Counted from the first letter of the stretch, positions 4,647-61,982 are shown. The stretch is 64,000 nt of DNA from Methanosarcina acetivorans C2A (GCF_000007345.1 NC_003552.1:4030001-4094000), one strand, 5' to 3'. Numbers and translations: made by a program. The notes: generated from the sequence alone by a model not told the origin.

Positions 4647-4861
4647 GAGATATTTTCAACTCTGTAAATATACCAATATCTATAAACTATCCCCCATATC
4701 TGTAAACTATCTGACCTGTGAAAACAGTAAGCAGCCTGTAAAACCAAAGCTTTAAAAGAAGACTTTAAGAAACCCCTGAAGAAACAGTCAAGCTCGGTCC
4801 GGAAAGCTGTACAGAAAACATTTAAGATATAGGTTGACCTTGACTATGCCCGAGGAAAAGG

Positions 4862-5209
4862 ATGAGCGAATACAAACAGTGTATAGTTACCCGGGACGAC
4901 CTGAAGCTTTCAAAAGGTAAGTTTGCCGTACAGGTAGCTCACGCAGCTCTTTCTGCGGCTGAATGGGCAAGCAAAAGCGACCTTGAAAAATGGAAAGAAG
5001 GAGGACAAAAAAAAATTGTCCTGAGAGTTCCCACCATTAAGGACCTGTATGAACTTAAGGAAAAAGCAAGACGGGAAGGACTCCCGACAGCCCTGATACA
5101 GGACGCAGGCCTTACGGAAATTCCGGCTGGGACGGTCACGGTGCTTGGGATAGGCCCGGCAAAAGAAGAGGTTATAGATAAGGTTACGCGGGATCTCAAA
5201 CTTGTTTAA
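4862..5209 (+). CDS. pth2: Peptidyl-tRNA hydrolase, archaeal/eukaryotic type (Pth2)
   Basis: 115 aa, the normal length for Pth2. It releases peptides from peptidyl-tRNA that has dropped off the ribosome. Recognisable features are the opening [20 protein letters not shown], the conserved VAHAAL segment, and the end [20 protein letters not shown] followed by VLGIGP, which holds the conserved Gln/Asp/Thr region of the family. An AGGAAAAGG stretch directly precedes the ATG. It stands alone between a minisatellite and the transglutaminase-like gene. Confidence 0.93.
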
Positions 5210-5321
5210 ATGCCACAAAAAGGATTGAACCCGTTCTAAAAAAGTGAGAAAAGGATACCTGAAGAGATGTTTCCACGGACAGAAAAAAGTTCTGCCTGTT
5301 ATTCTATTCAGGAGGGCATCA

Positions 5322-6572
5322 ATGAATAACCCGGAGTTTTCAGAAAAAAACGCACCAGAAAAAAACGCACTCTCGATTATTGCTGTCTTATTTATATGCC
5401 TTGTACTTGTTACAATTATCGGGTTTCTCTTTTCGGAGTCAATTGGCAATTTTACGAATGACTTAAAAGGTTATCTTGGATTGGGCGCGGAGCCTGAAAT
5501 CTCTGAAGAGGTATTCATACCTGAGAGGGCTTCTTTTACTTTTCCGGCAGTCCCTTCGTACTCCACTTCGAATAAAGAACTTACTCCAGTCCTGAGAACT
5601 CCATTGCAGCCCGGTTTTTCTCTGAGCAGCAATTACCAGACCTCGGAGTATTACCAGGGTGGAATAAGTTATGTTAAAATCAGCATTAAAAACGAAGGTC
5701 GAAACCCGATCTTTATTGATAGGTACGGAGTTTCGGTTAACGCCTCCGTAAACCGTATCTTTTCCGAAGACTGCGGAGTTTTGCTTGTTCCGGGGGAAGA
5801 GCAAAATCTCGGGGTAATCGCAGTTGAGGTCCCTGAAGAAGAAAAAGCCACCATCAACATAGTCCTCTGGCTGCTTGCCTCGACCTCGGAAGGGAAATGG
5901 CACGAGTACGAGCCCTATTTTATGAACGGAGTCGTTACCGATCTAAAGCCAATGCCCGAAAAAATTACTCCGAAATACCGATATAACCCTTCCTATTACT
6001 TTAAAACAATAAACCGACTTGTGGAGCCATCCGAACCGGACGTGAGAGCCAGAGCAGCCGAAGTAGCTCGTTCATATCCCGGAGCTTATAATATCTACCA
6101 GATCTGCGCCCTCTTTGACACGGTAAAAGAAGATATCGAATACGTAAGTGATCCGAGGGGTAACGACATATGGGAACCAGCCAATGTTACTCTGAGAATA
6201 GGAGCCGGAGACTGCGAGGATCAGGCAATTCTTCTTTCCTCCATGATCGAAGCTGTGGGAGGGACTACCCGGGTTTACCTGACAGATAACCATGCCTTTG
6301 CAGCCGTTTATATAGGCAACGGAACCGATGCAATTGAAGCCGAAGTTAAAGGAATAAGGGCTTATTACGGAAATGTTGACGTAAACTACCTGACTGACGA
6401 ATACGGTTCCTGGCTCATGCTCGACCCGACTTCCAGCCTTTATGCAGGCGGGCTTCCCGGAAAAACAGCCCAGACAAAGGTCCATGCCGTCGGGGAAAAC
6501 GAAACTTACAGGAGCTGGACCTTCATAAACACAAGCACAGTTAAAGTCATTGACATAAGTCCCGGGGATTGA
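5322..6572 (+). CDS. Membrane-anchored transglutaminase-like (cysteine protease fold) protein
   Basis: 416 aa from the ATG at 5322, chosen because GGAGGG lies 5 nt upstream; a GTG at 5244 would give a longer form without a good ribosome site. One N-terminal membrane segment (LSIIAVLFICLVLVTIIGFL, about residues 17-36) is followed by an extracytoplasmic part. The transglutaminase core has GDCEDQAILLSSMI (catalytic Cys), TDNHAFAAVYI (catalytic His) and, near the end, WLMLDPTS (candidate Asp). Archaeal members are usually predicted proteases or amidases of the cell envelope; the substrate is unknown. The region between anchor and catalytic domain (about 80-220) looks like a beta-sandwich. Confidence 0.75.
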   Translation: MNNPEFSEKNAPEKNALSIIAVLFICLVLVTIIGFLFSESIGNFTNDLKGYLGLGAEPEISEEVFIPERASFTFPAVPSYSTSNKELTPVLRTPLQPGFSLSSNYQTSEYYQGGISYVKISIKNEGRNPIFIDRYGVSVNASVNRIFSEDCGVLLVPGEEQNLGVIAVEVPEEEKATINIVLWLLASTSEGKWHEYEPYFMNGVVTDLKPMPEKITPKYRYNPSYYFKTINRLVEPSEPDVRARAAEVARSYPGAYNIYQICALFDTVKEDIEYVSDPRGNDIWEPANVTLRIGAGDCEDQAILLSSMIEAVGGTTRVYLTDNHAFAAVYIGNGTDAIEAEVKGIRAYYGNVDVNYLTDEYGSWLMLDPTSSLYAGGLPGKTAQTKVHAVGENETYRSWTFINTSTVKVIDISPGD

Positions 6573-6751
6573 AATCGGTTCCGTATATTAACAAGTGAGA
6601 CCCTTTCAGGAAGAAAATATATCCGGAGGGATCTGCATCAGACAATCAGCCGATTAGCTGTTAATCAGTAGTTTTTACCTTTTTAATTATCCTTACTTAA
6701 AGAATCCAGCCTTAAATTTTACCCATTTATAAAGAGGAGTGTTTGCAACCC

Positions 6752-8068
6752 ATGGAAGTTCCAGAAATTGAAAAACAGATCGGAATAAATCTTTACTCTA
6801 CTAACACCGAAGGTCTCGGAGGTCGACTCCGGCAGGAAGTGGAGGATTTTATTGTTAAAGAGATTACAAATAGAGAGGAAGGAAAGGATGGGAGATACCT
6901 TGTTCTCGAACTCACAAAACGCGACTGGGATACCCACCACTTTACCCGGACCCTGGCAAAAATCCTGCAGATAAGCCAGAAGCGAATAAGCGTTGCAGGC
7001 ACAAAAGACAAGCGAGCCCTCACCACCCAGAAGATCAGCATTTTCGATATCGATGCCCTGGAAATTGAAAAAATCCATTTAAAAGATGTAGAGCTGAAAG
7101 TCCTGGGTCGATCCCGAAAGTCCGTGGAACTCGGAGACCTGTGGGGAAACGAGTTTATAATTACAATCAGGGACATATCAAGTTCTCCCGAAGAAACCAG
7201 AACCATACTGGAGAAAACAAACAGCAAAGTCCTGACCCAGGGAGGAGTCCCGAATTTTTTCGGGGTCCAGCGTTTCGGCTCTGTCCGCTCTGTGACTCAC
7301 CTGGTCGGAAAAGCCATTGTTGAAGGAAACTTTGAAAAAGCTGCCATGCTCTACATTGCCGAGCCCTTCCCGGAAGAACCCGAGGAGACAAAAGCAGCCC
7401 GCCAGTTCGTAAAAGAGACCCGCGACTTCAAAGAAGGCCTCAAAACCTATCCCCTCCGCCTGGGCCACGAAAGGGCAATGATGAACCACCTCATCTCAAA
7501 CCCTGAGGACTATTCCGGAGCCTTCAGCGTGCTCCCTAAAAACCTGTACAGGATGTTCGTACACGCCTACCAGTCTTATATTTATAACATGATCCTCTGC
7601 CGCAGGATCGAAAGTGGCATCTCCTTAAACAGGGCAGTGGAAGGAGACATCGTCTGCTTCAGGAACGAAGCCGGGCTTCCGGACTCATCAAAGACGGAAA
7701 AAGTCACTTCCGAAACCGTAAACGCCATGAACCGCCTGATAAAGCACGGCAGAGCCTTCATAACCGCCCCTCTTCCGGGCTTTAACACCGAATTTGCATC
7801 CGGGGTCCCCGGAGAAATCGAAAGTAAGATCCTTAAAGAACTTAGAGTTTCGCTTGAAGGCTTTAATGTGGAAGAGTTCCCGGAAATGAGTTCGAAAGGT
7901 ACCCGCAGAGAAGTCCTCCTGCAGGTTGAACCGAAATTTGAGGTTGGAGAAGACGAGTTAAACCCTGGAAAATCAAAAACTGTGCTTGAGTTCATGCTGC
8001 CCAAGGGAAGTTACGCTACAACCGTGCTGCGGGAATACATGAAAGTTGATCCCTTGCAGATGAGCTGA
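6752..8068 (+). CDS. truD: tRNA pseudouridine synthase TruD
   Basis: 438 aa from the ATG at 6752. The TTG at 6743 is only 2-3 nt from the GAGGAG Shine-Dalgarno, so the ATG is preferred although its spacing is long. The protein converts a uridine (U13 in bacterial tRNA) to pseudouridine. The family motif AGTKDKRALTTQ, with the catalytic Asp, is at about residues 81-92. NFFGVQRFGSVRSVTHLVG and the C-terminal LPKGSYATTVLREYMK are also characteristic. The length fits archaeal TruD, which carries a large inserted domain. It is flanked by spacers of 180-260 bp and appears monocistronic. Confidence 0.93.
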   Translation: MEVPEIEKQIGINLYSTNTEGLGGRLRQEVEDFIVKEITNREEGKDGRYLVLELTKRDWDTHHFTRTLAKILQISQKRISVAGTKDKRALTTQKISIFDIDALEIEKIHLKDVELKVLGRSRKSVELGDLWGNEFIITIRDISSSPEETRTILEKTNSKVLTQGGVPNFFGVQRFGSVRSVTHLVGKAIVEGNFEKAAMLYIAEPFPEEPEETKAARQFVKETRDFKEGLKTYPLRLGHERAMMNHLISNPEDYSGAFSVLPKNLYRMFVHAYQSYIYNMILCRRIESGISLNRAVEGDIVCFRNEAGLPDSSKTEKVTSETVNAMNRLIKHGRAFITAPLPGFNTEFASGVPGEIESKILKELRVSLEGFNVEEFPEMSSKGTRREVLLQVEPKFEVGEDELNPGKSKTVLEFMLPKGSYATTVLREYMKVDPLQMS

Positions 8069-8329
8069 TATACTGAGAACTCAAAACAAACCGGACTGAA
8101 GAAAAAACTTGAAAAATAGACTTTTCGAGCCGAAATCTGCTGTTATTGCCTGGAAAACTGATCCCCTCTACCTCAATCGGGGTGCTTTTCAGGATGTATC
8201 GGAGATTTGAGAAGTTCAAGAAGAAACAATAAAAGCCAGTCTTAAAAGAGAAGGAAAAAGAGGATATCGCAGCCAAGTACATTGAATTAATTTGGTAAAT
8301 TGGAGAAAAAGCGGCAATATTCGATATTC

Positions 8330-8662
8330 TCAAAACTGCCTCCTCTTTCGGATCCCATACATAAGAAATGCAATGCCAAACAAAAAGATTACAAACATAA
8401 ACAAGAAGGCAAGAGCAACAAAGAATCCGAATCCAAGCCCGGCGTTATAAGGTTCTATAGCTTTAATAGAAAGAAGAATAACCCCCGTAAGAGCTATTAA
8501 CCAGGAGCCAAAGACAAGGACTCTGTTATTCATTTTTATCAGAAGTATTACCAGCAGGATTAGCATTGCAGCTATGGCGACCTGAGGAAAATAATAGGAT
8601 GCAGAACTCTCGAGACCCTTTGTAAAGGAGACCCTTTGTAAAGAACAGACCTTAATCTCCAT
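8330..8662 (-). CDS. Small membrane protein, three to four helices
   Basis: 110 aa from the ATG at 8660-8662. I do not recognise a family. Three hydrophobic stretches are clear (ending LLVILLIKM, SWLIALTGVILLSI and FFVALAFLFMFVIFLFGIAF), followed by a basic tail RKRRQF that suggests a cytoplasmic C-terminus. The start overlaps the stop of the decayed PQQ gene upstream, so the two were probably cotranscribed. A perfect 16-bp tandem duplication lies near its N-terminus and shifts frame, so the first dozen residues may be altered. It could equally be the C-terminal membrane part of the neighbouring damaged gene. Confidence 0.5.
   Translation of the reverse strand: MEIKVCSLQRVSFTKGLESSASYYFPQVAIAAMLILLVILLIKMNNRVLVFGSWLIALTGVILLSIKAIEPYNAGLGFGFFVALAFLFMFVIFLFGIAFLMYGIRKRRQF
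8612..8643. repeat. Perfect 16-bp tandem duplication
   Basis: GAGACCCTTTGTAAAG occurs twice back to back (8612-8627, 8628-8643). Sixteen is not a multiple of three, so the duplication changes the reading frame at the junction of the PQQ pseudogene and the small membrane protein. Confidence 0.9.
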
Positions 8663-10179
8663 GTTCAAAAGCATACAGTGTACCCTCAGTTGAAACCAGG
8701 TATAATTTGTTTTTGTAAAGTAAGGGCTTCGAGACGTCATATCCTTTTATTCTGCTACTGCTCTATACGAGTTCTCCAGTGCCGGAATCAAAAAATTGTA
8801 TACTGCTCGAATTCGTACAATAGATGAATTTATCACCAATCACAGCTTTGAAAAAACTCACATTTGAATAGGAGTACTCATTAAGAATTTCACCGGTTTC
8901 AGGCTTTAGGACACTGGGATTTGAAAAACCAACAAATAATTTGCCATCTGTTATTTCAATGACATTTTCAAACCCCCTATTGTTTGTTTTCCAAACTTCT
9001 TCTCCGGATTCGACAGACAATGCAATAATGCTCCTCGGTCTCGAAGCATAAACCAGGTCTTTGTAAAGGAAAGGTTCGAGATTTAAAATCTTGCCCGGAT
9101 ATACGAATTCCCATTCCATGTCTCCTGTATGTGCATTGAGCGCAATTATGCCCTCATTGTCAGGCCATTCCTTATATCCGAATACCACACAATTTCCATT
9201 CACCAGAGCCTTTGAAAGCTCATAGCCATAGCCTCCGGTTCCAGCGTCGCTTACATTTAGTTTATATTCCCACTTCAAAGCCCCGTTTTCAGTGTCAATA
9301 GCAGACACATATCCGTCTCCGGACGTGTTGATAAATAGGGTATTTCCAAATGCAACGGGATTACCCCACCAGATATCCGAGTTTTCTTTACTCCACAATA
9401 TTTTTCCGGTTTTTGCGTCCAATGCATCAATGTTTGAGGAGTGAACGGCAAACAAGACCCCTTCCTTATACCCCATGTCAACACTCGATTCATCACTCCA
9501 TTCTTTACTCCAGAGTAAGGTACCTGTTTCCGCACGAGGGCTATAATAATAGCATCTCCAAAATCCTCTCTACCAATGTAGAGGATCCCGTCCGCGGCAA
9601 GCGTTACCCCGGGAGGTATCTCGTACCCGAGATTCCAGGGCAACTCATAAGTCCAGGCAACTTCCAAAGGTGGCTCCAGGGTTATGGGCTCCGCTTCACT
9701 CAAATGGAGTGTGAGGTTGTAAAACTCAAAGTCGTCGTAATTACTGCCATCTGCATTACTCCCGGAACTGATTTTGATGGTATTGTCCCTGGATTGAAAA
9801 GAGTTGGATGGACCGGAATTTCAATATCCACTTCAGCGTCATCCGGGGTTCCTGCCGGGACATAGTCATTAATGGCTCCGATTTCTATTTCGTTGAGGTA
9901 AACTTTATCAAGAAATTTGTCAGTCGGCCCCAGAACTATGTTTTTGACTGCAACTCTGAGTTCCACACTTCTTATATCCGCTGAACCCAGAGTAAAAGTT
10001 GCCGTATAAACCGGACCTTCCGGATCACCCGGATTCAATTCTTCTTTAAAATTATCCCCAAGGTGGTGGTGTTCAGTGTCGAGAACTATTTCAGTCGCTG
10101 AAGCTCCTGAGATGAAAGCAAATAAAGAAACAAATAAAAATAACGCAAGAATACATGATTTTTTTATTACAGGATACAT
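8652..10179 (-). pseudogene. PQQ-like beta-propeller exported protein, disrupted
   Basis: Three reading frames join into one exported protein. It starts at the ATG 10177-10179 (preceded by GGGGTTGA) with a signal peptide (ILALFLFVSLFAFISGASA). A beta-sandwich region follows, then PQQ/WD-type propeller repeats (DALDAKTGKILWSK, SAIDTENGALKWEY, IALNAHTGDMEWEF, IALSVESGEEVWKT). A one-base deletion near 9787 (GGG where GGGG would restore NPGDNTIKIS) and another near 9541-9553 (restoring YYSPRAETGTLLWSKEW) shift the frame. An in-frame TAG at 8763-8765 interrupts before the last repeat (LYLVSTEGTLYAFE), and the natural end is TAA at 8652-8654. Either a decaying gene or sequencing errors; the TAG could in principle be pyrrolysine. 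Such propellers are abundant extracellular proteins in Methanosarcina. Confidence 0.8.
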
Positions 10180-30151: not shown

Positions 30152-30916
30152 ATGGCCAGAAGCAAGGTAAAAAATCTTCTCCTCCTGAAGCAGATCCACA
30201 GTGCTGTGACCCAGATCAAGAAAGGCAAACTGGATAAAGCCCTCGACACCCTGGATAAAGCCGAGAAATCTGCAAGACAGGCGAAATCCACGGATGCCCT
30301 TTACTATATTCTCTTTACCCGCGGAGGGATCCTTTACTCGGCAAAAGAGTATGACCGAGCCCTTGAGACCTATGAAAGAGCCCTCAAAGTAGGTTCCGAA
30401 CTCCTGGAAACAGACTCGGAAAATACCGATTACCAGCATTACATGGGCACAACCCTGAGCAATACGGGAAATCTCCTCCGGAAAAAAGGTGAAATTGACA
30501 GGGCTGTCGAATCCTATTCCTCTGCCCGTAAAATATATTCGGACCTCATCACAAAGGACCCCGAAAATGCCGTTTACCGCTCATACGCCGGAGAAAACCT
30601 GAATAACTACGGATCCCTCCTCCTGGAAGCCGACTCCCCGGATTCAGCCTGTGAAATCCTGAAAGAAGCCGTAAAAATCTACGAAAAACTCTTTGAGGAA
30701 AAGCCTGAAAATCTGGGTTATCAAGCCGAACTCTCAGTCGTGCTCAGTCAGTTAGGAAGCTGCCTCAAGCAACAAGACCCAGAAGAAACCGAAACCGCAA
30801 AAAAGGCCCTGGAAAGAGCCCTGGAAATGCAGGAAAATCTACTCTCCCAGCAGTCTGATAACGAGAAAATCAAAGAGGCTATCACCCTGACAAAAGAGAG
30901 GCTGGAAGGACTTTGA
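30152..30916 (+). CDS. TPR-repeat protein (254 aa)
   Basis: It has about five tetratricopeptide-like helical pairs: LDKALDTLDKAEKSARQAK, YDRALETYERALKVGSELLE, DRAVESYSSARKIYSDL, SACEILKEAVKIYEKLFEEK and a C-terminal KKALERALEMQENLL. There is no signal peptide, so it is cytoplasmic. TPRs form protein-binding superhelices; no enzymatic domain is present. The N-terminal logic (sensor-like 40-residue helical head, then kinesin-light-chain-type TPRs) is shared with the genes at 31901 and 32850, so the three form a paralogous cluster. The Shine-Dalgarno is weak. Confidence 0.85.
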   Translation: MARSKVKNLLLLKQIHSAVTQIKKGKLDKALDTLDKAEKSARQAKSTDALYYILFTRGGILYSAKEYDRALETYERALKVGSELLETDSENTDYQHYMGTTLSNTGNLLRKKGEIDRAVESYSSARKIYSDLITKDPENAVYRSYAGENLNNYGSLLLEADSPDSACEILKEAVKIYEKLFEEKPENLGYQAELSVVLSQLGSCLKQQDPEETETAKKALERALEMQENLLSQQSDNEKIKEAITLTKERLEGL

Positions 30917-31559: not shown

Positions 31560-31850
31560 ATACTAACTATGTTGCCAATACGACGCTCTCATAATATGAC
31601 TATGCCACCAATACCATGTTATCAACTATGCAACCAACACTTGCAACCAACTATACTACAATACCATGCTACCAGCTATGCTACCAACATTATGCAACCA
31701 ACCTTGCCCCAATAATACGCTCAACAGGATCTATGATATTAAACTATGCCATAATACGGCTTTCATTACAACAAAACCTGTGTTACAGGAAAACCTGTGT
31801 TCGAGATACTGCCCAATATGACCCACCATGTAACAAAATCTACACTACCG
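31560..31850. repeat. Low-complexity ACCAAC/CTATGC-rich leader
   Basis: Short irregular repeats of CTATGCAACCAAC and ATACCATGCTACCA fill the spacer before the second TPR gene. A frame stays open through it, but its composition is unlike the gene and I regard it as untranslated. The rest of 31378-31900 shows no gene. Confidence 0.5.
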
Positions 31851-31900
31851 GTCTATGCTGCAGCAGAACCTATAAAACATTACAGGCGTTTTTTTTAGAT

Positions 31901-32671
31901 ATGTCCGAGACACCCCAGAAATTGAGAGAAGAAGCAGTAAAATATTTTAATGAAACCCTGGATCTGATGCAAAAAGGAGAAAACGCTGAAGCCCTCGAAT
32001 CCCTCCGGAAGGCCGAAAGCTCCGCCCAGAAAGCAGAAGACGGCCCCATTCTGTTCCACATCTTAAAAGTAAGAGGACAGCTGCTCCAGTCCCTGGACAT
32101 GCTTGAAGAAGCCCTCGAAACCTACGCCTTTTCCTTAATTATGAGCGAAAAACTCCTCTCCGAAGACCCGGAAAACAAACTCTACACCGACACCCTCCAC
32201 CTGAACCTCAACAACCTCGGAAACCTCGGCAACGCCTTCCAGAGAATGGGCAACTTCCCTTCCTCAAAACAGGCCTACGAAATAGGCATCGAAATCTGCC
32301 AGAACCTCCTCAATTCCTATCCCGAAAACGAATTCTACCGGATGTACGCCGGAAACACCCTCAACAACCTCGGAGAACTGCTTTTCACAATGGGTGAGCC
32401 CGAAGAAGCAAAAGAAAAATACGAAGAAGCCCTCAAAACCTATTCCCTCCTCCTCAAAAATTCCCCGGAAAAACCGGAATACCTCTCAGACACAGCAATG
32501 ACCCTCAACAACCTCGGAAACCTCTATTCCGAAAAAGGGCAAGAGGCAGAGGCAAAAGAAAACTTCGAAAAGGCGCTTGAGATCCTGAAAAAACGGAGTG
32601 AAAAAGAACCGGGGAATGAAAAGCTGAGGGAAGAAATCAGAATCACGCAGGAAAAACTCGAAGCGATTTGA
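31901..32671 (+). CDS. TPR-repeat protein (256 aa)
   Basis: The start at ATG 31901 (MSETPQKLREEAVKYFNETL) is chosen because it aligns with the start of the paralogue at 32850 (MSGSLRDSAIDHFNKTISLM); the frame upstream is low-complexity. It has about five TPR-like units with the recurrent LNNLGNL motif, for example TLHLNLNNLGNLGNAFQRMG and TAMTLNNLGNLYSEKGQEAE. The protein is soluble, with no catalytic motif. No clear Shine-Dalgarno precedes the ATG, which suggests a leaderless or unusual transcript, as for the gene at 32850. The 180-bp gap to the next gene leaves cotranscription open. Confidence 0.82.
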   Translation: MSETPQKLREEAVKYFNETLDLMQKGENAEALESLRKAESSAQKAEDGPILFHILKVRGQLLQSLDMLEEALETYAFSLIMSEKLLSEDPENKLYTDTLHLNLNNLGNLGNAFQRMGNFPSSKQAYEIGIEICQNLLNSYPENEFYRMYAGNTLNNLGELLFTMGEPEEAKEKYEEALKTYSLLLKNSPEKPEYLSDTAMTLNNLGNLYSEKGQEAEAKENFEKALEILKKRSEKEPGNEKLREEIRITQEKLEAI

Positions 32672-32849: not shown

Positions 32850-35069
32850 ATGTCCGGGAGTTTGAGAGATTCAGCTATAGATCACTTCAATAAGACTATA
32901 TCCTTGATGCAAAAAAGACAAAACAAAGAAGCTTTAGAAGAACTTGAAAAAGCTGAAGAAGCTGCAAAGCAAGCGAAAGCAAACGACATTCTCATCCATA
33001 CCGTGAACCTGAGAGGGCAGCTTATGCTTACTCTGGGCGCTCTCGATGAAGTCCTAAGGATCTGCGGATTCGCTTCAAACTTTTTTGCGGACATACTTTT
33101 GAAAGACCCCGAAAATGAATTCTTCCAGCAAAGTTTTCAGATGAACCTCAACAACCTCGGAACTACCGGCAACTTTTACCATAACACAGGAAGATTCCCT
33201 CAAGCAAAAAAAGCCTATGAAACCGGACTTGGCATCACTCTAAAACTTCTGCAATCTTCTCCTCAAGACGATTTTTTACAAAACTATACCGGAACGACGC
33301 TAAACAATCTAGGAAACTTGCTTTCGGATATGGGGAGAATTGAAGACGCGAAAAACAGGTACGAAAAAGCACTCGAAATGAGAGAAAAACTACTCGAAAA
33401 AGACCCCGAAAATGTAGCATACCAATCATACGTAGGAGGGACACTAAACAATTTAGGAAACTTGCTTAAAAATATGGGGCGCATCGAAGACGCGAAAAAC
33501 AGGTACGAAAAAGCACTCGAAATGAGAGAAAAACTACTCGAAAAAGACCCCGAAAATGTAGCATACCAATCATACGTAGCAATGACGCTAAACAATTTAG
33601 GAAACTTGCTTAAAAATATGGGGCGCATCGAAGACGCGAAAAACAAGTACGAAAAAGCACTCGAAATGAGAGAAAAACTACTCGAAAAAGACCCCGAAAA
33701 TGTAGCATACCAATCAGACGTAGCAATGACGCTAAACAATTTAGGGACATTGCTTTCGGATTTGGGGAAAATTGAAGATGCGAAAAACAGGTACGAAAAA
33801 GCACTCGAAATTTACGAAAAACTACTCGAAAATGATCCCGAAAATGTAGCATACCAATCTTACGTAGCAATGGCGTTAAACAATTTAGGAAACTTGCTTA
33901 AAAATATGGGGAGAATTGAAGACGCAAAAAACAGGTACGAAAAAGCACTCGAAATGAGAGAAAAACTACTCGAAAACGACCCCGAAAATGTAGCATACCA
34001 ATCAGACGTAGCAATGACGCTAAACAATTTAGGGACATTGCTTTCGGATATGGGGAGAATTGAAGATGCGAAAAACAGGTACGAAAAAGCACTCGAAATT
34101 TACGAAAAACTACTCGAAAAAGACCCCGAAAATATAGCATACCAATCAGACATAGGAGGGACACTAAACAATTTAGGGACATTGCTTTCGGATATGGGGA
34201 GAATTGAAGATGCGAAAAACAGGTACGAAAAAGCACTCGAAATTTACGAAAAACTACTCGAAAAAGACCCCGAAAATATAGCATACCAATCAGAAGTAGG
34301 AGGGACACTAAACAATTTAGGGACATTGCTTTCGGATATGGGGAGAATTGAAGACGCGAAAAACAGGTACGAAAAAGCACTCGAAATTTACGAAAAACTA
34401 CTCGAAAAAGACCCCGAAAATATAGCATACCAATCAGAAGTAGGAACGATGCTAAACAATTTAGGAAACTTGCTTTCGGATATGGGGAGAATTGAAGACG
34501 CGAAAAACAGATACAAAAAAGCACTCGAAATTTACGAAAAACTACTCGAAAAAGACCCCGAAAATATAGCATACCAATCTTACGTAGGAGGGACACTCAA
34601 CAATTTAGGAAACTTGCTTTCGGATATGGGGAGAATTGAAGACGCGAAAAACAGATACAAAAAAGCACTCGAAATTTACGAAAAACTACTCGAAAAAGAC
34701 CCCGAAAATGTAGCATACCAATCATACGTAGGAACTATGCTAAACAATTTAGGGACATTGCTTTCGGATATGGGGAGAATTGAAGACGCGAAAAACAGAT
34801 ACAAAAAAGCACTCGAAATTTACGAAAAACTACTCGAAAAAGACCCCGAAAATGTAGCATACCAATCTTACGTAGGAGGGACACTCAACAATTTAGGAAA
34901 CTTGCTTTCGGATATGGGGAGAATTGAAGACGCGAAAAACAGATACAAAAAAGCACTCGGAATTTACGAAAAACTACTCGAAAAAGACCCCGGAAACTTA
35001 GCATATCACTCAGAAGTGAACACGATCCAATGTAAAGTAAAAAAAGTTAAAGGTTCCGGGAGATGTTGA
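32850..35069 (+). CDS. Large TPR protein with about 12 nearly identical repeats
   Basis: 739 aa. A head of about 160 residues like that of the 31901 product is followed by about 12 copies of a 48-residue kinesin-light-chain-like TPR unit. The core is NNLGNLLSDMGRIEDAKNRY, then KALEIYEKLLEKDPENVAYQ. Copies differ at few positions (EMRE/EIYE, DPENV/DPENI, KNMGR/SDMGR). Such regularity gives a long solenoid for protein binding. There is no membrane segment and no enzyme domain. It ends 1 bp before the TPR-nitrilase gene, so the two are an operon and the products likely interact. The number of repeats is expected to vary between strains. Confidence 0.88.
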   Translation: MSGSLRDSAIDHFNKTISLMQKRQNKEALEELEKAEEAAKQAKANDILIHTVNLRGQLMLTLGALDEVLRICGFASNFFADILLKDPENEFFQQSFQMNLNNLGTTGNFYHNTGRFPQAKKAYETGLGITLKLLQSSPQDDFLQNYTGTTLNNLGNLLSDMGRIEDAKNRYEKALEMREKLLEKDPENVAYQSYVGGTLNNLGNLLKNMGRIEDAKNRYEKALEMREKLLEKDPENVAYQSYVAMTLNNLGNLLKNMGRIEDAKNKYEKALEMREKLLEKDPENVAYQSDVAMTLNNLGTLLSDLGKIEDAKNRYEKALEIYEKLLENDPENVAYQSYVAMALNNLGNLLKNMGRIEDAKNRYEKALEMREKLLENDPENVAYQSDVAMTLNNLGTLLSDMGRIEDAKNRYEKALEIYEKLLEKDPENIAYQSDIGGTLNNLGTLLSDMGRIEDAKNRYEKALEIYEKLLEKDPENIAYQSEVGGTLNNLGTLLSDMGRIEDAKNRYEKALEIYEKLLEKDPENIAYQSEVGTMLNNLGNLLSDMGRIEDAKNRYKKALEIYEKLLEKDPENIAYQSYVGGTLNNLGNLLSDMGRIEDAKNRYKKALEIYEKLLEKDPENVAYQSYVGTMLNNLGTLLSDMGRIEDAKNRYKKALEIYEKLLEKDPENVAYQSYVGGTLNNLGNLLSDMGRIEDAKNRYKKALGIYEKLLEKDPGNLAYHSEVNTIQCKVKKVKGSGRC
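33340..35008. repeat. 144-bp tandem repeat, about 12 copies, within the TPR gene
   Basis: The repeat period is 144 bp (48 codons), easily followed by the recurring AAAAACAGGTACGAAAAAGC and its AAAAACAGATACAAAAAAGC variant. Variants occur in blocks (early copies with EMRE, later ones with EIYE and KNRYKK), which points to duplication in groups. Confidence 0.95.
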
Positions 35070-35070
35070 A

Positions 35071-37065
35071 ATGTCAGATAATAAAGAGTCTTTAACTGAT
35101 ACTGAAGAAAAAAATATTGATTGTTTTGAAGAAATAAAGACAAGTCTTGAATATGTTTTAACTGTATCCGAAAATCAACTTAAAATTGATATTGAAAATG
35201 ATGCATACCAATCATTAGTTGTCACAACTTCGAATAGCCTCTCATCCTTATTTCAGCATGTTGGTTTGATAGAAATAGCTAAGAAACACTTAAAGCGATC
35301 AATTGAACTTTGTAATAAAAAAATAGAGGCAGATCCACATAACTTGGCTTACAAATTAGATAGGGCAAAAGCTATATACATTCTAAGGAAAGTAGAGAAT
35401 TTTTTATTTAAACGTACTTTGAGTAAAGATAGTGAAAGCGTACAAAAAACCCATCAAAAAACAACAAGTATCTCTAGCTACGAGAATAATTATTACAATA
35501 GTTTAGTTGAAAACATCGAATTAATCAAGCAAACGGAAAAAGAAGATGAAGATTACGAATCATTTGAAAATTTATACTCTCAGTTAATCGATGAAATGAA
35601 AAGTTTTAATCCAGAAATTTTCTACAACAACTGGAAACTAACAATCAAATTTGACTCCAAAAAAGTTAAAGGAAAACTGACAATAAAAATTGGAGCCACC
35701 ACATTTTTTGATCGTCAACTAACTGAAGAAGAGGCAAAATATAACGAAATTGAAATCGATTTACGGGAGAGGAAATATTTTCCCAAAGGAAAAGAGTTTA
35801 TCACCTTTGAAATTCCAAACCATATGCCAATAATAAAGGAATTTGACTATTTTGAAACAATAGATGGAAAACACAAAACAAGAATCTTGCAACATGATTG
35901 TTGTGGAAATCTATTTACTGGAAAGAACTTGCGGATTGCAGCAGTTCAGCTCAAGTACAATGCATATAAGGAAAATTCGGTTGTGAAAATCATGGCTGAT
36001 GAAGCCTATCACCGAAAAATATTGGCGGTTCTTAAAGCTTTAAGGGGAGAAACAGACATTATAGTTTTTCCTGAATTTTCTATCCCATTTGATTTTCTTG
36101 AAGAGATACAGCAATTCTCAGATGAAAACAGAATTATTGTTGTGGCTGGAAGCCACTATGTCATCGATGAAAATATCGAAAAATATGGGAAACTATTCAT
36201 TCACGAATTCGAAGAGGCAGACTTATTAAAAAATGTTTCACCTATTGTGATTCCTTCATCGAAAATAGTACATAATGAAAAGTATTTAGGAGCAAGAATA
36301 GAAGAACCTGTATTTTTTGAAGATGGAATGGAACCGGGAGAAATAAACCACATTTTCAAACTTCAAGAAAACCTCAACATTGGAATTTTGATTTGCTATG
36401 AGTTTCTGAATACAGAGTTGAGACATCGCTTAGTTCCGATTTGTAATGTAATTCTTGTACCACAGACAAACCCGAAGCCTCAAAGCTTCTACGAAATGGC
36501 TTTGAATGATATTAATCGTCCTCTGGGAGGAGGAAATACGGCTTTTGTTATGGCAAACGGGATCTTTACTGTCGATGGAGAAAAAGGGATTCAGGGAGGA
36601 TATACAGGGATTGCCTTAACGCTGGACAAGCACTCAAAAACGCTAGAAGAAGAAGGTATTATCTTTCCTGTTGGGGGATCCATGGAGCAGCTTGTATTTT
36701 TAGCTTCTATAAACACTGACTATTTCCCTGCCTGGGAAGGCCAAGTAGGACAAGTACCAATCACGACAAGACTCATCCATATCTTTGAAGAATCTGAAAT
36801 ACTTAGGAATCCTGAGGGAAACGGAAAGGAGTTCATCGAATTAATAAGGAAAATTAATTCCTGTGAGAATCGGGAAAAATTAAGAGAGCTTCTTGAGAAA
36901 AACCGTAGAGATCTGAAAAATAGTGAAGATGCAGATAAAGGTAAGGAAAAATCCCTAATAGAACAATACTCCCCCCTCATGAATAAACATATCCAGAACA
37001 TTGAAAACCTCAAATTAGAAAAGATGAAGAAAAAATGCTGTTGTATCCTGATCCCTGCAGAATAA
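35071..37065 (+). CDS. TPR-nitrilase (carbon-nitrogen hydrolase) fusion protein
   Basis: 664 aa. Residues about 20-110 are helical and TPR-like and keep the AYQSLV phrase of the upstream repeats. Residues about 195-285 look like a beta-rich domain (WKLTIKFDSKKVKGKLTIKI). Residues about 286-560 are a nitrilase-superfamily domain with an apparent Glu-Lys-Cys triad: Glu near 334 in IVFPEFSIP, Lys near 397 in PSSKIVHNEKY, Cys near 442 in GILICYEFLN. These enzymes hydrolyse amides or nitriles, or transfer acyl groups; the substrate is unknown. The C-terminus ends in a basic, Cys-rich tail (KKKCCCILIPAE). It starts 1 bp after the large TPR gene stops. The architecture is unusual to me. Confidence 0.82.
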   Translation: MSDNKESLTDTEEKNIDCFEEIKTSLEYVLTVSENQLKIDIENDAYQSLVVTTSNSLSSLFQHVGLIEIAKKHLKRSIELCNKKIEADPHNLAYKLDRAKAIYILRKVENFLFKRTLSKDSESVQKTHQKTTSISSYENNYYNSLVENIELIKQTEKEDEDYESFENLYSQLIDEMKSFNPEIFYNNWKLTIKFDSKKVKGKLTIKIGATTFFDRQLTEEEAKYNEIEIDLRERKYFPKGKEFITFEIPNHMPIIKEFDYFETIDGKHKTRILQHDCCGNLFTGKNLRIAAVQLKYNAYKENSVVKIMADEAYHRKILAVLKALRGETDIIVFPEFSIPFDFLEEIQQFSDENRIIVVAGSHYVIDENIEKYGKLFIHEFEEADLLKNVSPIVIPSSKIVHNEKYLGARIEEPVFFEDGMEPGEINHIFKLQENLNIGILICYEFLNTELRHRLVPICNVILVPQTNPKPQSFYEMALNDINRPLGGGNTAFVMANGIFTVDGEKGIQGGYTGIALTLDKHSKTLEEEGIIFPVGGSMEQLVFLASINTDYFPAWEGQVGQVPITTRLIHIFEESEILRNPEGNGKEFIELIRKINSCENREKLRELLEKNRRDLKNSEDADKGKEKSLIEQYSPLMNKHIQNIENLKLEKMKKKCCCILIPAE

Positions 37066-44006: not shown

Positions 44007-44080
44007 GGGCTCGTGGTCTAGACGGTTATGACGTCGCCTTGACATGGCGGAGGTCCTGAGTTCGAATCTCAGCGGGCCCA
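44007..44080 (+). tRNA. tRNA-Val (GAC), copy 1
   Basis: The acceptor GGGCTCG pairs with CGGGCCC. The anticodon loop TTGACAT is flanked by CGCC/GGCG, giving GAC. The T arm holds GTTCGAATC. Discriminator A at 44080; the 3' CCA is not encoded. Confidence 0.95.
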
Positions 44081-44216
44081 CTAAAAACACCGAATTATAC
44101 CCAAAAACGGTCAAAATTTTTCCTGAGTTCTTTCAGGAAGGAAAAAACTAAAAATAACTGCTACCTCTTTTAAATATCAGTTCTGAAGGAGCAATTCAAC
44201 AGCAAATTATCTGCAT

Positions 44217-44291
44217 GCCCAGGTAGCTCAGTGGGAGAGCGCTGCCCTGAAGAGGCAGTTGTCCCCGGTTCGAATCCGGGTCTGGGCACCA
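44217..44291 (+). tRNA. tRNA-Phe (GAA), copy 1
   Basis: The acceptor GCCCAGG pairs with TCTGGGC. The anticodon loop CTGAAGA on the stem CTGCC/GGCAG gives GAA. The T arm is CCCCGGTTCGAATCCGGG. The 3' ACCA is present in the DNA. Confidence 0.95.
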
Positions 44292-44314
44292 CAAAAAGAA
44301 AAGAAAAGTATAGA

Positions 44315-44386
44315 ACATCAGTAGTGTAGCGGTCATCACCGGGCGTTGCCAACGCTCGAACCCGGGTTCGAATCCCGGCTGGTGTA
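44315..44386 (+). tRNA. tRNA-Gly (GCC), copy 1
   Basis: The acceptor ACATCAG pairs with CTGGTGT. The anticodon loop TTGCCAA gives GCC. The T arm is CCCGGGTTCGAATCCCGG. The first base A (paired with T) is atypical for tRNA-Gly. CCA is not encoded. Confidence 0.92.
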
Positions 44387-44450
44387 TAACTTTTTTGATA
44401 CCTTATTCCAAACACCTTTTGTAATAAGGAGTAGAAACATGCATCTTAGA

Positions 44451-44524
44451 GGGCTCGTGGTCTAGACGGTTATGACGTCGCCTTGACATGGCGGAGGTCC
44501 TGAGTTCGAATCTCAGCGGGCCCA
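44451..44524 (+). tRNA. tRNA-Val (GAC), copy 2
   Basis: Identical in sequence to the tRNA at 44007-44080 and exactly 444 bp downstream of it, in the second copy of the tRNA cassette. The flanks are also similar, differing at scattered positions. Confidence 0.95.
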
Positions 44525-44660
44525 TTAAAAACATCGGATTACACCCAAAAACGGTCAAAATCTTTCCTGAGATCTTTCAGGAAGGAAAAAACTGAAAATA
44601 ACTCCTATCTCTTTTAAAAACCAATTCAGAAAGAACATCTTAGTAATAAATTATCTGCAT

Positions 44661-44735
44661 GCCCAGGTAGCTCAGTGGGAGAGCGCTGCCCTGAAGAGGC
44701 AGTTGTCCCCGGTTCGAATCCGGGTCTGGGCACCA
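44661..44735 (+). tRNA. tRNA-Phe (GAA), copy 2
   Basis: Identical in sequence to the tRNA at 44217-44291, 444 bp downstream, including the encoded CCA end. Confidence 0.95.
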
Positions 44736-44765
44736 TAAAAACGAAAAAGAAAAGAAAAGCACAGA

Positions 44766-44837
44766 ACATCAGTAGTGTAGCGGTCATCACCGGGCGTTGC
44801 CAACGCTCGAACCCGGGTTCGAATCCCGGCTGGTGTA
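44766..44837 (+). tRNA. tRNA-Gly (GCC), copy 2
   Basis: Identical in sequence to the tRNA at 44315-44386. It is displaced 451 bp rather than 444 because of a short A/G-rich insertion before it. T-rich DNA (TTTTTTGATTGATTTTTTG) follows and may terminate the cluster. Confidence 0.92.
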
Positions 44838-60839: not shown

Positions 60840-61982
60840 ATGCCTTTCCATGTGATGCTGATCCCTACCCTGGGCTGTCCCGCCAACTGTAATTATTGCT
60901 GGAGTTCTGAGGAAAAATCCCCGATAATGAGCATCGAAACCATTAAAGAAGTGGTTGAATGGCTTAAAGTTTTCAGGCAGGATTCGGTTACTTTTACCTT
61001 CCACGGGGGGGAACCTCTCCTTGCCGGGGTTGATTTTTACCGGGAAGCCTTACCTTTGCTGGCTGAGGGTCTGAGTCCCAGGAATATCGCTTTTGCCATA
61101 CAGACGAACCTCTGGAAACTTACTCCGGAAATAGCCGAAATTTTTGCCAGATACGATGTCCCCATTGGTTCCAGTCTGGACGGTCCCCAGGAGCTTAACG
61201 ACCTGCAGAGGGGAAAGGGCTATTACGAAAAAACCATGAAAGGCTATGAGATTGCGAAGGCTCATGGACTTACTGTGAGATTTATCACTACTTTTACCTC
61301 TCACTCCGTAAAGTTCAGGGAGGATATTTTCAATTTCTACCTGGAAAAAGGTTTAACCCTTAAGCTGCATCCCTGCCTGCCTTCTTTGAAAGGGGACAAT
61401 CCCGAAAAATGGGCGCTTGATCCTGAAAAATACGGAGAACTCTTAATTTACCTTCTGGACAAGTACCTTGAAAACATGGGCAAAATCGAGGTTATGAATA
61501 TTGACCAGCTGTGCAAATGCGTGTTCACAGGTAGAGGCACTGTCTGCACCTATGTAGACTGCATGGGAGATACTTTTGCAGTTGGCCCTGACGGAGGCAT
61601 ATACCCCTGTTATCGCTTCGTGGGCATGCCGGAATACGTAATGGGGAATGTCTATGACCGTCCGACCATGGCAGACCTTGCCCAGTCCGATGCCTGGAAG
61701 CTTATGCACAAATATAAGGAATTTGTGGACAGTGAATGCGGTAAATGCTCTCATATCAAGTACTGCAGGGGTGGATGTCCTTACAATGCCATAGTTCCCA
61801 CCGACGGGGAAATAAAAGCTGTTGACCCACACTGCGTTGCCTACAAGATGATATTCGATGAAATTACCGATCGCGTAAACCAAGAAATGTTCGGGTCTGC
61901 TGGCAGCATGGATATGTTTTTGCCCCAGACAATGAAACCTTCCAGACCGGGTATAATGTCCCTAATGCTCAAGAAAATTTGA
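60840..61982 (+). CDS. Radical SAM/SPASM peptide-modifying enzyme
   Basis: 380 aa. The SAM cluster motif is CPANCNYCW at about residues 13-21, followed by FTFHGGEPLLAG and SLDGPQELNDLQRG. A C-terminal SPASM-type Cys region contains CTYVDCMGDTFAVGPDGG plus YPCYRF, then CGKCSHIKYCRGGCPYNA. Such enzymes install thioether or other crosslinks in peptides, or activate enzymes as anSMEs do. The methanogen branch is thought to modify a small peptide; the name of the specific subfamily (Mhun_1560 type) is from memory. A 46-aa Cys-rich peptide is encoded opposite, 265 bp downstream, and could be the substrate. Confidence 0.85.
   Translation: MPFHVMLIPTLGCPANCNYCWSSEEKSPIMSIETIKEVVEWLKVFRQDSVTFTFHGGEPLLAGVDFYREALPLLAEGLSPRNIAFAIQTNLWKLTPEIAEIFARYDVPIGSSLDGPQELNDLQRGKGYYEKTMKGYEIAKAHGLTVRFITTFTSHSVKFREDIFNFYLEKGLTLKLHPCLPSLKGDNPEKWALDPEKYGELLIYLLDKYLENMGKIEVMNIDQLCKCVFTGRGTVCTYVDCMGDTFAVGPDGGIYPCYRFVGMPEYVMGNVYDRPTMADLAQSDAWKLMHKYKEFVDSECGKCSHIKYCRGGCPYNAIVPTDGEIKAVDPHCVAYKMIFDEITDRVNQEMFGSAGSMDMFLPQTMKPSRPGIMSLMLKKI

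Follow-up and report, generated by a model that had tools for sequence, protein, structure and literature searches.

We focus here on a pair of adjacent genes found in a stretch of 64,000 nucleotides of the Methanosarcina acetivorans C2A chromosome (NC_003552.1, 4030001-4094000), which we call the window and whose positions are counted from its first nucleotide. The first open reading frame (ORF1, 32850-35069) encodes a tetratricopeptide repeat (TPR) protein of 739 aa, and the second (ORF2, 35071-37065) encodes a protein of 664 aa that runs from TPR-like helices through a beta-sandwich to a nitrilase domain. Both of them lie on the plus strand, as do all the features of the pair and of its paralogues that are located below. 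We consider, with a probability of about 0.58, that a TPR-nitrilase effector gene was split into ORF1 and ORF2, which together would make up a sensor-gated toxin of the antiviral type, for which we infer the sensing, the activation, the substrate and the antiviral role. The enzyme half is probably an uncharacterised immune effector, because it shares parts with CRISPR and other antiviral proteins. The best reading of the family would be that of a nitrilase effector variant that has a TPR sensor in place of a CARF, reverse transcriptase (RT) or nucleoside triphosphatase (NTPase) domain, and whose two halves are separate genes in the window.

The two genes are exactly where a preliminary description, made from the DNA alone, had placed them, with a single base pair in between: the TGA stop of ORF1 occupies 35067-35069, the ATG of ORF2 starts at 35071, and their reading frames differ. 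A GGGAG motif read from the sequence (35058-35062), the probable ribosome-binding site of ORF2, sits within the end of ORF1, 8 nt 5' of the ATG. ORF2 is presumably produced as a separate protein from a translationally coupled pair. A sigma-70 promoter scan, which tells little about an archaeon, gave no excess over chance. As had been proposed, ORF1 is a TPR protein from end to end (Pfam TPR_10, 1.7e-125), composed of an N-terminal cap and of an array of about 12 homogenised units of 48 aa, or 144 bp (33273-35006, ends approximate). The architecture attributed to ORF2 is also recovered by Pfam, by PADLOC and by an AlphaFold model. It starts with one degenerate TPR (residues 15-102, 35113-35376), and the AYQS phrase it shares with ORF1 reflects real TPR homology, residues 14-102 being 39% identical to the ORF1 repeats (E 9e-12). 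The beta-sandwich that follows, which is seen in the model and kept across the relatives, covers residues 182-276 (35614-35898), and the nitrilase domain, delimited by Pfam, by the fold match and by PADLOC, covers residues 284-558 (35920-36744). The protein ends with a helical tail (36748-37062) terminating in KKKCCCILIPAE, in which the SPLM and K..C positions are conserved.

The nitrilase assignment relies on several lines of evidence. Pfam CN_hydrolase (PF00795) matches residues 288-538 of ORF2 with an E-value of 8.8e-6, above the gathering score. The AlphaFold model, built on 15 family sequences, has an overall predicted local distance difference test score (pLDDT) of 72.7; the score is poor at residues 28-65 and 115-177, mostly between 75 and 93 across the beta-sandwich, and uneven along the nitrilase, where most values are 60-93. 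When this model was compared to solved structures with VIA-align, residues 284-555 matched many ordinary nitrilases (Z 18-20), the closest of which are ordinary amidases, carbamoylputrescine amidohydrolase and Nit2; a sequence search of the solved structures with the family profile gave no match, although the fold search was clear. The apparent catalytic triad also falls into place in an alignment of 29 nitrilase sequences. The column of Glu335 (codon 36073-36075, in VFPEFSIP) contains Glu in 29/29, that of Lys404 (36280-36282, in HNEK) contains Lys in 28/29 with one gap, and that of Cys442 (36394-36396, in ICYE) contains Cys in 28/29, the homologue of genome G080 having a Gly. A displaced triad had been named beforehand as one of two results that would refute the description, and no displacement is seen at the level of the alignment and of the fold. 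By its predicted fold and its aligned Glu/Lys/Cys triad, ORF2 therefore belongs to the nitrilase (CN_hydrolase) superfamily. Purifying selection acts on its nitrilase half, as judged from the comparison of the beta-sandwich and nitrilase with the closest relative, G098 (dN 0.144, dS 1.01, dN/dS 0.14, a pairwise value in which part of the signal predates the gene split).

The TPR-CN_hydrolase fusions that the preliminary description proposed to look for in other genomes do exist. In most of the intact relatives, which come from other Methanosarcinaceae and from Methanoperedens, both parts are carried by one protein of 966-1466 aa, with an ORF1-like N-terminus, a variable array of 48-aa TPRs, a helical linker of about 275 aa that starts with YTEPMQYLTIG, the beta-sandwich, the nitrilase and the conserved tail. 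Residues 1-706 of ORF1 align to the N-terminal half of the 1466-aa protein of locus L036 with 73% identity, and the predicted model of the 979-aa protein of L046 displays a continuous alpha-solenoid over residues 1-489 (pLDDT mostly 80-95), followed by the sandwich and the nitrilase. G086 (L041) also has the TPRs and the linker-nitrilase on two ORFs, of 264 and 750 aa. A search with the linker found it in neither ORF of the window (hmmsearch, E about 2). Since neither of them holds the linker and since ORF2 opens with a degenerate repeat of the ORF1 type, the window pair seems to have arisen by a derived fission in which the linker was lost, and does not look like a conserved two-gene module. 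A simple frameshift or a sequencing error between the two ORFs was considered and rejected, because the linker is missing from both and because the end of ORF1 resembles the TPR-only paralogues.

The relationship of this family to antiviral proteins speaks for the immune reading. ORF2 matches the PADLOC models RTasNitrilase (2.7e-17) and RT_UG5-nitrilase (1.3e-12), the matched stretches covering only the C-terminal, nitrilase-bearing part of those RT models, and a profile of the C-terminal half of the family retrieves distant homologues that are linked to CARF, TIR-CARF, NACHT-HEAT and STAND domains. In the same genome, at about 2.389-2.394 Mb (L078), csm-type genes precede a CARF-TPR-nitrilase of 1078 aa, behind which comes a CARF-nitrilase of 459 aa, while G098 and G006 carry TIR-CARF-TPR-nitrilases inside type III-A loci. 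The linker of our family is homologous to the region lying between the TPRs and the nitrilase in these CRISPR-linked proteins (hhalign 99.7%, E 4.7e-27; hmmsearch 5e-45 for L078), and searches made with it alone, over as many as 393 genomes from the phylum and over 31 Methanosarcina genomes, retrieved only the TPR-nitrilase family and the type III-A CARF-TPR-nitrilases. Homology of the linker to the helical region of the RT-nitrilases was sought and not detected (hhalign probability 0.1%). Neither ORF1 nor ORF2 has a CARF or Csx1/Csm6 match (Pfam, PADLOC), an RT domain (Pfam) or an NTPase/STAND domain (Pfam). In the nitrilase tree, the window family forms one group (98/99), distinct from the canonical nitrilases of the same genome, and the CARF proteins form another (100/98). 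The sensor-effector idea of the preliminary description gains support in that both parts belong to a single chain in the relatives and that type III CRISPR effectors have the same kind of linker and nitrilase; it is as a fusion that the two genes are conserved together, and not as a system of two genes.

Several of these loci have features of their own. The type III-A locus L078 has its two nitrilase effectors side by side (4752-7985 and 8014-9390), and the Glu motif of the CARF-TPR-nitrilase reads SE where PE is usual. A Methanosarcina genome, G081, encodes a DUF4062-NACHT-HEAT-nitrilase of 2005 aa with many near-identical HEAT units (L080, 2085-8099), and in G272 a nitrilase homologue is fused to a STAND-HEAT protein (L081, 1309-3897). 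Other homologues are joined to a protein resembling radical S-adenosylmethionine (SAM) enzymes (L105, 176-2065) or lie beside a separate ORF of 539 aa that resembles an NTPase (L106, 4986-7453). The archaeal proteins of L101, L102 and L103, of about 1030-1080 aa, are UG5-like: they contain a YVDD motif of reverse transcriptases and carry a nitrilase at the C-terminus.

In the sensor part, the 48-aa units are homogenised within each array and their copy number varies between genomes. Positions 2, 5, 9, 12 and 13 of a TPR line its concave ligand groove, and in the ten core repeats of ORF1 the nonsynonymous differences reach 0.263 per site at these positions vs 0.064 elsewhere, an excess matched by only 0.4% of random five-position draws (1-2% in the arrays of G075, G081 and G078). 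Over ORF1 as a whole, the nonsynonymous/synonymous ratio stays under 1. In G080, a TPR array of a different type (NPHP3-type) precedes the same linker and nitrilase, in the protein whose catalytic Cys is a Gly. Locus L042 (3-10922) contains a TPR-nitrilase with a change of the catalytic Cys to Gly, preceded by an orphan of 611 aa and by a TPR protein of 1566 aa with a weak match to SMC/ABC-like ATPases; it is possibly a different system with a dead nitrilase.

From these elements, a mode of action can be proposed. In the ancestral single chain, the TPR solenoid, with its changeable ligand groove, would sense a proteinaceous signal, and the helical linker would transmit the resulting change to the C-terminal nitrilase, which would be activated, probably through oligomerisation as in nitrilases. 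The active enzyme might then hydrolyse an essential amide- or amine-bearing metabolite, leading to the growth arrest or the death of the infected cells. ORF1 as the sensor and ORF2 as the effector, the latter with one remnant TPR and no linker, would presumably act in trans in the window genome. A bolder version, which we regard as rather doubtful, is that of a stand-alone methanogen immune receptor working with neither an NTPase nor a second messenger, whose TPR groove, diversified by repeat exchange, would bind viral proteins directly and trigger the nitrilase toxin, an effector module that type III CRISPR governs through CARF.

The preliminary description knew of no system with this layout, which is right in part: no paper on TPR-nitrilase fusions was found in the literature, but nitrilase effectors are recorded with CARF sensors and with reverse transcriptases. 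TPR-CHAT (Craspase-type) is comparable in that a TPR solenoid controls a hydrolase directly, with no NTPase; there, however, the effector is a caspase-like protease under the control of a CRISPR complex. The CARF-nitrilase effectors of type III CRISPR (PADLOC PDLC01989, CARF_m7--CARF_nitrilase) are also of the nitrilase family, and those of L078, L079 and L104 have, like our fused relatives, TPRs and the same helical linker before the nitrilase; of the linker and nitrilase, ORF2 keeps the nitrilase only. They differ by their CARF sensor of the cyclic-oligoadenylate type (some also have a TIR) and by their position beside csm/cas10, whereas the window family has no CARF, has a beta-sandwich before the nitrilase, and occupies a fixed housekeeping site. 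The NACHT/STAND-HEAT-nitrilases of L080 and L081 also combine a repeat solenoid and a nitrilase homologue in a single chain, but with HEAT repeats and an NTPase switch that the window family lacks. The RT-nitrilases DRT1 and UG5 have a Glu/Lys/Cys nitrilase at their C-terminal end, behind an alpha-helical region that has no detectable homology to that of the window family, which is devoid of reverse transcriptase. The nitrilase domain of DRT1 is a phage-triggered abortive-infection effector, a tetramer that is kept inactive in filaments and whose substrate is unknown (PMC13275509); a UG5 RT-nitrilase, with a transmembrane partner, protected from phage (PMC9122126); and nitrilases are counted among the effectors switched on by Cas10 products (PMC8157118). 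By analogy, these three cases may serve as precedents for the window protein.

The distribution of the family is patchy, with a match in 14/31 Methanosarcina genomes and with decayed copies, the gene being broken by stops in G076, deprived of its N-terminal part in G102 and reduced to about 50 tail codons in G077. Most copies share one orthologous site, flanked by lonB and by the gene of a pyridoxal phosphate (PLP) enzyme, with TPR-only paralogues close by; those of G098, G080, G110 and Methanoperedens BLZ2 are elsewhere. A species-level scan, seeded by exact motifs and thus missing distant members, retrieved Methanosarcinales only, plus a distant Kordia match. This pattern of presence and loss, together with the swapping of sensors, suits an immune effector, and the fixed site and the lack of mobile copies call for caution. 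Several other points weigh on the same side. The neighbours in the window are lonB, TldD/PmbA and genes of PLP and thiamine pyrophosphate enzymes, with no adjoining type III cas genes; the site of most copies, with lonB on one side and genes like those of coenzyme M biosynthesis on the other, is no defence island. The ten other window proteins that were scanned with PADLOC gave no strong match, and no homologue was found in the phage, plasmid and viral-contig collections searched. The position of the window family with respect to the CARF and RT nitrilases is weakly supported in the tree (71/52), and we therefore make no claim that one family arose from the other. TPRs in general vary at their groove positions, so that the pattern seen in ORF1 fits recognition and falls short of proving diversifying selection. 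Finally, as the window version has no linker, the coupling of ORF1 to ORF2 is putative.

The main alternative is that of a metabolic or regulatory amidase performing a normal cellular reaction, such as amide hydrolysis in nitrogen, polyamine or protein N-terminal turnover, with the TPR solenoid as a docking scaffold. The vicinity of lonB and biosynthetic genes, the strong purifying selection and the ordinary amidases among the top structural matches all agree with it, yet the gene is missing from about half of the Methanosarcina genomes and decayed in others, is separate from the canonical nitrilases of the genome, has TPR arrays that are homogenised and copy-variable, and has a linker common only to type III CRISPR nitrilase effectors; we judge it unlikely, while giving it real weight. 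It is less probable still that the pair is a decaying remnant, in which fission and linker loss uncoupled the sensor from the enzyme, so that at most the TPR-only protein is still functional. The missing linker and the decay of the same gene in three genomes are in line with this, but the triad is complete, the dN/dS is low even if it partly reflects the time before the split, and ORF2 has its own start and probable ribosome-binding site. As for an auxiliary arm of type III CRISPR, in which the TPR-nitrilase would be activated indirectly, via the CARF-TPR-nitrilase or cyclic oligoadenylate, the common linker and kind of nitrilase and the presence of both CARF effectors in the same genome make it conceivable; the absence of a detected CARF domain and the long distance between the two loci make it very improbable. 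The split effector gene remains our preferred reading.

The two further TPR paralogues that had been announced just upstream are present. The first one (30152-30916, 254 aa) is at the same place in the relatives and is kept even in G077, where the nitrilase gene is a remnant. The second one (31616-32671) can be annotated as 351 aa and has orthologues of 254-280 aa in L030, L031, L032, L035 and L036. Its true start is probably near 31900, since the relatives are 254-259 aa long and its first 95 or so codons are absent from those orthologues. Elsewhere in the window, a tRNA-Val/Phe/Gly cluster is duplicated in tandem (44007-44837), and a radical SAM protein (60840-61982) with a weak PADLOC match to viperin (pVip, 1.2e-8) is probably an ordinary enzyme of this type.

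Nitrilases appear as effectors in several antiviral systems. As the linker and nitrilase stay constant while the sensor is swapped (CARF, TPR, NPHP3-type TPR), the family may offer a route to the substrate of these effectors and to the way in which an enzyme is switched by a repeat solenoid that has no NTPase. The methanogenic archaea, in which few innate-type receptors are known, would also gain a candidate of this kind.

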